DNA of 64,000 nucleotides, taken from NCBI RefSeq assembly GCF_008369115.1, contig NZ_VOAZ01000003.1, forward strand, positions 124,001 to 188,000, read 5' to 3'. The notes under the pieces were generated by a model that saw nothing but the letters and a program-made list of their open reading frames with translations, was not told where the DNA came from and did no database searches. Positions 33,348 to 61,824 of the stretch are shown in pieces. Position 1 is the first letter of the stretch; every line of letters starts with the position of its first letter. This DNA is from Psychrobacter sp. ANT_WB68 (GTDB lineage: Bacteria > Pseudomonadota > Gammaproteobacteria > Pseudomonadales > Moraxellaceae). The position numbers and the translations under genes are program-made.

Positions 33348-33432
33348 GCGATTGTGGTGGAATTGGTAGACACGCCATCTTGAGGGGGTGGTGGCGCAAG
33401 CTGTGGGGGTTCAAGTCCCCCCAATCGCACCA
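33348..33432 (+). tRNA. tRNA-Leu (anticodon GAG)
   Basis: An 85-nt class II tRNA with encoded CCA. The acceptor stem GCGATTG pairs with CAATCGC. Anticodon stem CCATC/GGTGG encloses loop TTGAGGG, giving anticodon GAG (codons CUC/CUU). A variable arm (TGGCGCAAGCTGTG region) and the T stem GGGGG/CCCCC are present. TATAAT at 33307-33312 may belong to its promoter. Confidence 0.95.
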
Positions 33433-33566: not shown

Positions 33567-33643
<77 letters not shown>

Positions 33644-49636: not shown

Positions 49637-50050
49637 AAGAATATCCAATATTAATGAACGAATTATTATTGATTGAGAATGTTGTTATACAAGGGTTGTT
49701 ATATAGGTTATCTAAAAGATGGGTATCACTCGCTTGGAATACAACCCAGTGCTGCATATATCGTTTTAAAGTAGCGTCTTTAAAAATGATCATAGCTGGC
49801 AATACATTGACTGCAATTATTGACTGCAATTATTGACTGTAAGTAAAGTTGATTAAGCTTCGCTTACAAACCGTCATCATTTGCTTGCAAATTGACCCTA
49901 TAGAGAGTGGGGTTAAATTGTTAGCATCATAGTAAGGGAAGTGGAAAAACAGACTTATTTACTAGTGAAATAATTTCTAAAATAACCAATAAATATAAAA
50001 AATCTACTTTAACGTGCAAACCAATGATAATAAAACAAGGAGCAGTATTT
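49637..50050. other. Intergenic region between divergent prlC and the Balon-like gene
   Basis: A 414-bp stretch that holds the tandem repeat at 49806-49842 and a possible weak promoter TTGACC-N16-TAAATT (49892-49919) for the Balon-like gene. Short open frames here lack ribosome sites and are not called. Confidence 0.5.
49806..49842. repeat. 13-bp tandem repeat (2.8 copies) upstream of the Balon-like gene
   Basis: The unit ATTGACTGCAATT starts at 49806, 49819 and 49832; the last copy is incomplete and diverges at its ninth base. Each unit contains TTGACT, close to a sigma-70 -35. It lies about 210 bp upstream of the Balon-like start and 170 bp upstream of prlC. It may be an operator array or slippage product. 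Confidence 0.75.
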
Positions 50051-51163
50051 ATGAAAGCAACTCTTAAAAGTTTACGTGAGACGAAGGCCAACCCAGCAGT
50101 TAGTATTTTTATCAAAACTCACCGTGAGCATCCTGATAATGAAAAGGATCCTATCGCTCTAAAAAACCAATTAAAAGTCGTCGAAGAGCGCTTAACCAAT
50201 GAATATGATAAGCGTACAGCAACCACTATATTAGAAAATATCAAAAATAAAACCAGTGATTTTAACCATAATTATAATCTAGATACGTTGGCGATATTTG
50301 CCAGTATGGATGATGTACAAGTTATCCGTATGCCAATCGATACCAAAGAACGTGTGATCATCTCAGATAGATTCGCTACGCGTGATTTGGTGCGTGATAT
50401 GGCAAGTGCGGTTCATTATTATACGGTCGTATTGACGCGTGATAACGCCCGTTTGATTGAAGCTTCTAACGATCGAGTTATCAAAGAATTTGATAAAGAT
50501 GATGCTGCGCAAAATAATATGGAAAACATCCCATTTCCTATCGAAAATAATGGGCTGTATACCACAGGTGATAGCGGTTCAGATCGCTCGTCAAATAACG
50601 AAAGTAGCTATTTGAAAGCCTTCTTTAACCAAGTGGATAAAAGTGTTCAAGAGCTGTGGGGCGAGAATAAAATGCCGCTTGTCATCGTTGGTGACACCAA
50701 AAATATTGGTTACTACAAAGATGTCTGTGATCGTCCAGAAAATATCATTGCCACTGTTTCAAATGCCACTAATTTAGAAGAAGGCAGTGCACAGCATATT
50801 GTTGATAGTGTACAGGAAGCCGTAGAGGGCTATCGGTCGTCATTACATCAAACTGCTTTGGGTGAGATTGATAAAGCTCGCGGTGCAAATATGCTGCAGA
50901 CAGACTTACAAGAAGTCTATCGTAGTGCTTTTCAAGGTGTAGGCGAGACCTTATATGTCCGTCGTGGTTATATGCAACCTGCGAAGATTGATGAAAAAGC
51001 GCAGACACTGAGTATGGCAGAAGATGCTACGGCAGAAGGTGTCACTGATGATGCGATTGGCGAAATTATCGAGCATGTCATTCATAATGGTGGTAAAGCT
51101 GTCTTTATGCCACAAGATATTATGAGTGAAGATCAGCCAATTGCTCTGGTGACTCGCTATTAA
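50051..51163 (+). CDS. Balon-like (aeRF1-related) ribosome hibernation factor
   Basis: 370-residue protein I recognise as a member of the Balon family, the hibernation factor found on cold-shocked Psychrobacter urativorans ribosomes, where it occupies the A site together with EF-Tu-GDP. It belongs to the bacterial homologues of archaeal eRF1/Pelota. Three parts are visible: an N-domain (about 1-130, MKATLKSLRETKANPAVSIF), a middle domain (about 135-270, with YLKAFFNQVDKSVQELW) and a C-domain (about 275-370, ending GKAVFMPQDIM...ALVTRY). No GGQ motif is present, so it is not a peptide-release enzyme. AAGGAG lies eight bases before ATG 50051. Family by recognition; no alignment was run. Confidence 0.82.
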   Translation: MKATLKSLRETKANPAVSIFIKTHREHPDNEKDPIALKNQLKVVEERLTNEYDKRTATTILENIKNKTSDFNHNYNLDTLAIFASMDDVQVIRMPIDTKERVIISDRFATRDLVRDMASAVHYYTVVLTRDNARLIEASNDRVIKEFDKDDAAQNNMENIPFPIENNGLYTTGDSGSDRSSNNESSYLKAFFNQVDKSVQELWGENKMPLVIVGDTKNIGYYKDVCDRPENIIATVSNATNLEEGSAQHIVDSVQEAVEGYRSSLHQTALGEIDKARGANMLQTDLQEVYRSAFQGVGETLYVRRGYMQPAKIDEKAQTLSMAEDATAEGVTDDAIGEIIEHVIHNGGKAVFMPQDIMSEDQPIALVTRY

Positions 51164-51220
51164 TTGATTGCTGATATTCATTAATGAATTAGCCATCGTT
51201 ACGACATAGGTATAATATGG

Positions 51221-51254
51221 GAGCATTGGTTCGATAAGAATCAATGCTCTTTTT
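51221..51254 (+). terminator. Terminator of the Balon-like gene
   Basis: A 12-bp stem (51221-51232 with 51238-51249, one G-U pair), 5-nt loop and five T. It lies 57 bp after the stop, so the Balon-like gene is a single-gene transcript. Confidence 0.9.
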
Positions 51255-59182: not shown

Positions 59183-61540
<2,358 letters not shown>

Positions 61541-61646
61541 GACTTCCCTGCGTCGGTACTAACCGCATCAGGTTCGGCGGGTGATCTCTCAGCGAATGTA
61601 TTGACAAGCTTATAAAGTAAGCTTGTCATACACCGCACCCCGAGTC
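61541..61646 (-). promoter_or_regulatory. TPP riboswitch (thi element)
   Basis: On the minus strand the sequence has the thi-box order: GGGGTGC, then the P3 arm, CTGAGAGATCACCC, then GAACCTGATGCGGTTAGTACCG and AGGGA. These are the conserved thiamine pyrophosphate aptamer elements. P3 is extended by an 11-bp perfect hairpin (61602-61612 with 61618-61628). It lies upstream of thiC. Confidence 0.95.
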
Positions 61647-61824
61647 TGTCAGTGTTGTAAAATCAGTCTCATACTAACAAACTATAGGGTTGATGCCTAG
61701 TCATTTACCGTTTGTTAGTTGAGATGAAATCGTGGTACTTTCAATTTGATTACTGTCTTTTCAATCAACAACAGTCTTTTTAATTAATGCCAGTTTTTTT
61801 GATCAACGAAAGTCATCATTCGAA

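Follow-up and report, generated by a model that had tools for sequence, protein, structure and literature searches.

The gene at positions 50051–51163 (+ strand) of the window, i.e., the whole stretch of 64,000 nucleotides analysed here, raises the questions of whether its product is a ribosome hibernation factor of the Balon family, as a first-pass annotation had proposed, or a factor for rescue or peptide release, and of how its transcription is directed. The reading frame is complete, running from an ATG at 50051 to a TAA stop ending at 51163, and its 370 codons encode a protein of 370 amino acids with matches to NCBIfam NF052287 and Pfam PF18845. An alternative in-frame ATG at 50024 would open a longer frame. 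We consider this codon unlikely to be the true start, as (i) chain B of Protein Data Bank entry 8rd8 starts at the same residue as the shorter frame, (ii) a Shine-Dalgarno sequence, AAGGAG (50037–50042, + strand), lies 8 nt before 50051, and (iii) the ATG corresponding to 50024 is missing or out of frame in many relatives. AAGGA was found within 20 nt of the start codon in 60 of the 62 loci compared, and the strong ribosome site claimed previously is therefore well founded. The Shine-Dalgarno sequence is part of a conserved leader, AATGATAATAAAACAAGGAG (50023–50042), in which conservation extends well past the ribosome site; a 17-base portion of it, GATAATAAAACAAGGAG, has no other exact match in this genome. 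The leader may serve as a signal in translational control.

When all Protein Data Bank sequences were searched with phmmer, the window protein matched solely chain B of 8rd8, 8rdv and 8rdw, and chain B of 8rd8, the Balon of Psychrobacter urativorans (AOC03_06830), was aligned end to end (E = 2e-202). In a global alignment, 301 of 370 positions (about 81%) were identical, and identity was even along the thirds of the chain (0.83, 0.81 and 0.79). The P. urativorans protein is 369 amino acids long, the extra residue of the window protein being located near position 324, and the 19% of residues that differ are scattered along the chain with no functional difference indicated. The protein also scored 525 bits against NF052287, the NCBIfam equivalog for the hibernation factor, for which the cut-off is 330 bits. 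The assignment to the Balon family made in the first-pass annotation is thus borne out by the full-length alignment, the equivalog and the Pfam match described below, and the alignment with P. urativorans Balon, which had been named there as a check, is far from random. Chain B of 8rd8 was deposited under the name ‘Methyl-accepting chemotaxis protein’, while the entry titles speak of the hibernation factor Balon; the former label is evidently a carried-over mis-annotation, and is likely to mislead and to be propagated.

The middle region of the protein (residues 122–296; 50414–50938, + strand) matched Pfam baeRF_family3 (bacterial archaeo-eukaryotic release factor family 3) with 110 bits, and the Pfam eRF1 domain families gave no real match, the scan yielding only baeRF families and chance matches (E up to 10). 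That families named after release factors match the middle domain, and that aRF1/eRF1 appeared among the matches of the structure search, are what a baeRF-type rescue or peptide-release factor would lead us to expect. We nevertheless hold such a function, in place of hibernation, to be scarcely credible, because the GGQ motif is absent from the window protein, as had been claimed earlier, and because about 81% of its residues are identical to those of a protein seen on idle ribosomes with an inert catalytic centre. The NIKS motif was likewise not found in the 370 amino acids. A single His-Pro dipeptide occurs in the protein, at codons 27–28 (50129–50134, + strand), and neither H27 nor P28 varied among 31 aligned Psychrobacter proteins. 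We presume that it corresponds to the published HP motif of the decoding centre. In Balon homologues from other genera, L105 (2027–3157, − strand) and L111 (2042–3286, + strand), the corresponding residues read HRTFP and HRSFP against HREHP in Psychrobacter, so that these homologues retain the proline of the presumed HP motif and have Phe for its histidine.

The likeness to P. urativorans Balon (8rd8, 8rdv and 8rdw) thus comprises a full-length alignment, one HP, the absence of GGQ and NIKS, and a fold assigned by homology. As about 81% of the residues are identical to those of a protein of solved structure, a three-domain eRF1-like fold is practically certain. An AlphaFold2 model built from a 31-row Psychrobacter alignment was itself poor (mean pLDDT 56, pTM 0.45), presumably because the rows were too alike or the alignment too shallow. 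With this model as query, Foldseek ranked the three Balon chains at the top (E about 1e-42), followed by mycobacterial Balon proteins including Msmeg1130 and then by aRF1/eRF1, with Pelota weaker; the TM-score to Balon itself was only 0.39, and such low scores are attributable to the weakness of the model. These matches do not point to a structure lacking the three-domain eRF1 layout, which the first-pass annotation had named as an outcome that would refute its reading. A Pelota-like C-terminal domain would be assigned from the published structure of the orthologue, since it is not visible from the sequence alone, and the lasso, the bL27 trap and the EF-Tu beta-hairpin would be covered only by the overall homology to Balon.

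The mycobacterial homologues Msmeg1130 and Rv2629, which are also reported to bind the A site (PMC10901736), resemble the window protein in fold in the Foldseek search with the poor model, but share about 13–16% identity with it and constitute separate NCBI equivalogs (NF052288 and NF052289), whereas the window protein matches NF052287 only. Similarly, aRF1/eRF1 and Pelota share the three-domain layout, as judged from the structure of the orthologue, and gave weak structural matches to the poor model; they differ from the window protein in sequence (about 10–14% identity) and in that the latter lacks NIKS and GGQ, and the surface with which Balon contacts EF-Tu is described as different from theirs (PMC10901736).

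P. urativorans Balon is described in PMC10901736 as a protein that uses its HP motif to bind the A site independently of mRNA, that has a lasso around A2602 and a bL27 trap in place of GGQ, and that associates with EF-Tu-GDP; RaiA was found to occupy the same ribosomes. According to the same source, Balon knock-outs of P. arcticus grew slightly faster in rich medium and recovered worse initially after three months in stationary phase. If the window protein acts alike, cold shock or starvation would bring it into the ribosomal A site, where the N-terminal domain would touch the decoding centre via the His-Pro motif with no need of mRNA, the middle domain would lie beside the peptidyl-transferase centre and trap the bL27 tail with no release of peptide (there being no GGQ), and the C-terminal domain would bind EF-Tu-GDP, so that vacant and translating ribosomes alike could be parked. 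Transcription would cover this gene only, starting most likely about 117 nt upstream at a single dedicated promoter with an extended −10 and probable activator boxes, and the transcript would end at the terminator of the gene itself. Our analysis shows the orthology, the motifs present and absent, the conservation, the conserved upstream element and the terminator; the ribosome-binding steps of this scheme come from the work on P. urativorans (PMC10901736), and we infer the promoter and the regulation. As a whole, the explanation that the gene encodes a Balon orthologous to AOC03_06830, which would park ribosomes and most likely has a promoter of its own besides its terminator, is in our view nearly certain. 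Nothing in the sequence suggests a departure from the published mechanism. RaiA is also encoded in this genome.

Judged by its residues, the protein is an ordinary Psychrobacter orthologue of the founding member of Balon and no new kind of factor. It is already known and covered by automatic annotation; as one more orthologue of a family described in 2024 in the same genus, it confirms and does not extend what was reported. Our family sample comprised 249 genomes of 16 genera, 91 of them of Psychrobacter. Exactly one full-length copy of Balon was present in every one of the 91 Psychrobacter genomes (75–100% identity), and no second copy was found in the genome studied here. Balon was detected in 5 of the 16 genera; in the other four it occurred in some genomes, at about 40–58% identity in three genera and as a very remote homologue in one. 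All relatives bearing a name belonged to Psychrobacter, which places the window in this genus or very close to it, and the closest proteins were those of P. luti and P. maritimus (both 95%). Compared with six relatives, dN/dS was about 0.04–0.07, indicating strong purifying selection on Balon, albeit these ratios are rough because several dS values were near saturation.

The upstream neighbour is a divergent gene for an M3-family oligopeptidase on the opposite strand, and the downstream neighbour, a gene of the Exo_endo_phos family, starts 186 bp past the Balon stop and is followed by an alcohol-dehydrogenase-like gene. All three neighbours are retained in most of Psychrobacter. Between Balon and the Exo_endo_phos gene lies an intrinsic terminator (51219–51251, + strand), a stem-loop of 14 pairs followed by a T-rich tail. 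The terminator is largely kept in relatives, the exact arms GAGCATTG...CAATGCTC being present in 24 of 62 loci. The earlier statements that the gene stands alone and has its own terminator consequently agree with what we found: a divergent peptidase upstream, one stem-loop with a T-run, and a next gene that starts only after it.

The first-pass annotation had further pointed to a repeat array upstream as a sign of dedicated regulation. The array exists (49806–49844, + strand): it comprises 2.6 copies of the 13-bp unit ATTGACTGCAATT at 49806–49839, two of them perfect, and a third, degenerate copy reaches 49844. It is small and specific to this strain. Although the array does sit upstream of Balon, the unit was absent from all 61 related loci that we compared, the Balon proteins of which are 78–95% identical to the window protein. 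Being private to this strain, the array was rejected as a regulatory signal, and we regard a role for it in the regulation of Balon as very unlikely. The proposal of dedicated regulation thus loses its original pointer, but another element, conserved and adjacent to the array, renders it likely.

Aligning the upstream regions of the 62 loci, we recognized three conserved islands, namely the Shine-Dalgarno leader, a block of ~70 bp just downstream of the array (49863–49931, + strand), and a weaker stretch around 49710–49735. The block, a probable promoter/operator, contains CTTACAAA (49863–49870), CTTGCAAA (49884–49891) and CCCTATAG (49896–49903), and its invariant columns read TTACAAA, ATCATTT and TTGCAAA, followed by T-G-n-T-A-n-n-n-T. 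It was present in 59 of the 62 loci, 147–528 bp before the start codon as measured from the ATCATTT core. Across the family sample, it occurred once per genome in 78 of the 91 Psychrobacter genomes and was never found in other genera. A scan of the window against Rfam detected nothing near the Balon gene; elsewhere it reported a TPP riboswitch (61528–61652, − strand) and two tRNA genes (33348–33429 and 33567–33640, + strand). No pairs were predicted in a consensus RNA structure of the block, which is therefore more likely to act as a DNA element. In this genome, neither a 41-base pattern allowing 3 mismatches nor a sequence profile found a second copy with confidence, the next-best profile match being partial (E = 0.3), and the idea that the block is a regulon motif was accordingly dropped. 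When 2 mismatches were allowed, the 15-base core matched 18 places, against 5 for a reversed-pattern control.

TGnTAnnnT is the textbook pattern of an extended −10 element. In the window it corresponds to the predicted TGTTAGCAT (49919–49927, + strand) with the hexamer TAGCAT at 49922–49927, from which transcription of Balon is predicted to start near 49934, giving about 117 nt of 5′ leader. The pattern was found at the same place, on the + strand and toward Balon, in 59 of 59 loci, a count that speaks for consistency and is no independent test, because the pattern had been read off the alignment before counting; at any other + strand offset it occurred in at most 4 of the 59 loci, and on the − strand at none. 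Nothing like a −35 box is seen 17 bp upstream of the −10 hexamer, and the spacing of the two CTTRCAAA boxes is exactly 21 bp, or two helical turns; both observations suggest an activator. BfmR was considered as the activator and rejected, as the P. aeruginosa BfmR motif (CGTAC repeats) is unlike the block.

We predict the block to be a dedicated, probably activator-dependent promoter of Balon. Alternatively, the M3 oligopeptidase gene could be its target, either by itself or together with Balon. Nearly every locus with the block has the peptidase as divergent neighbour, so that synteny cannot separate the two genes as targets, and the distance from the block is variable to both. Nevertheless, the invariant extended −10 faces Balon on the + strand in 59 of 59 loci, and the block-less loci L085, L086, L093, L112 and L113 keep the adjacent peptidase, which argues that the latter has no need of the block; but Balon, too, is present in these loci. 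We therefore consider service to the peptidase, alone or shared, rather unlikely. Returning to a promoter of Balon, we would give roughly even chances to its full form, in which two CTTRCAAA boxes and an extended −10, once per genome, make up an activator-dependent promoter of its own with a leader of about 90–470 nt across species.

We found no published description of a conserved upstream element in a limited literature search, and this promoter-like element may be the only undescribed part of the locus. It would be a handle on how cells time ribosome hibernation: if the above scheme is true, a cold or starvation regulator would turn on hibernation via a single site. The weaker conserved stretch mentioned above, TATCTAAAAGATGGGTAT (about 49710–49735), lies between Balon and the divergent peptidase, and a similar one is present in P. 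urativorans.
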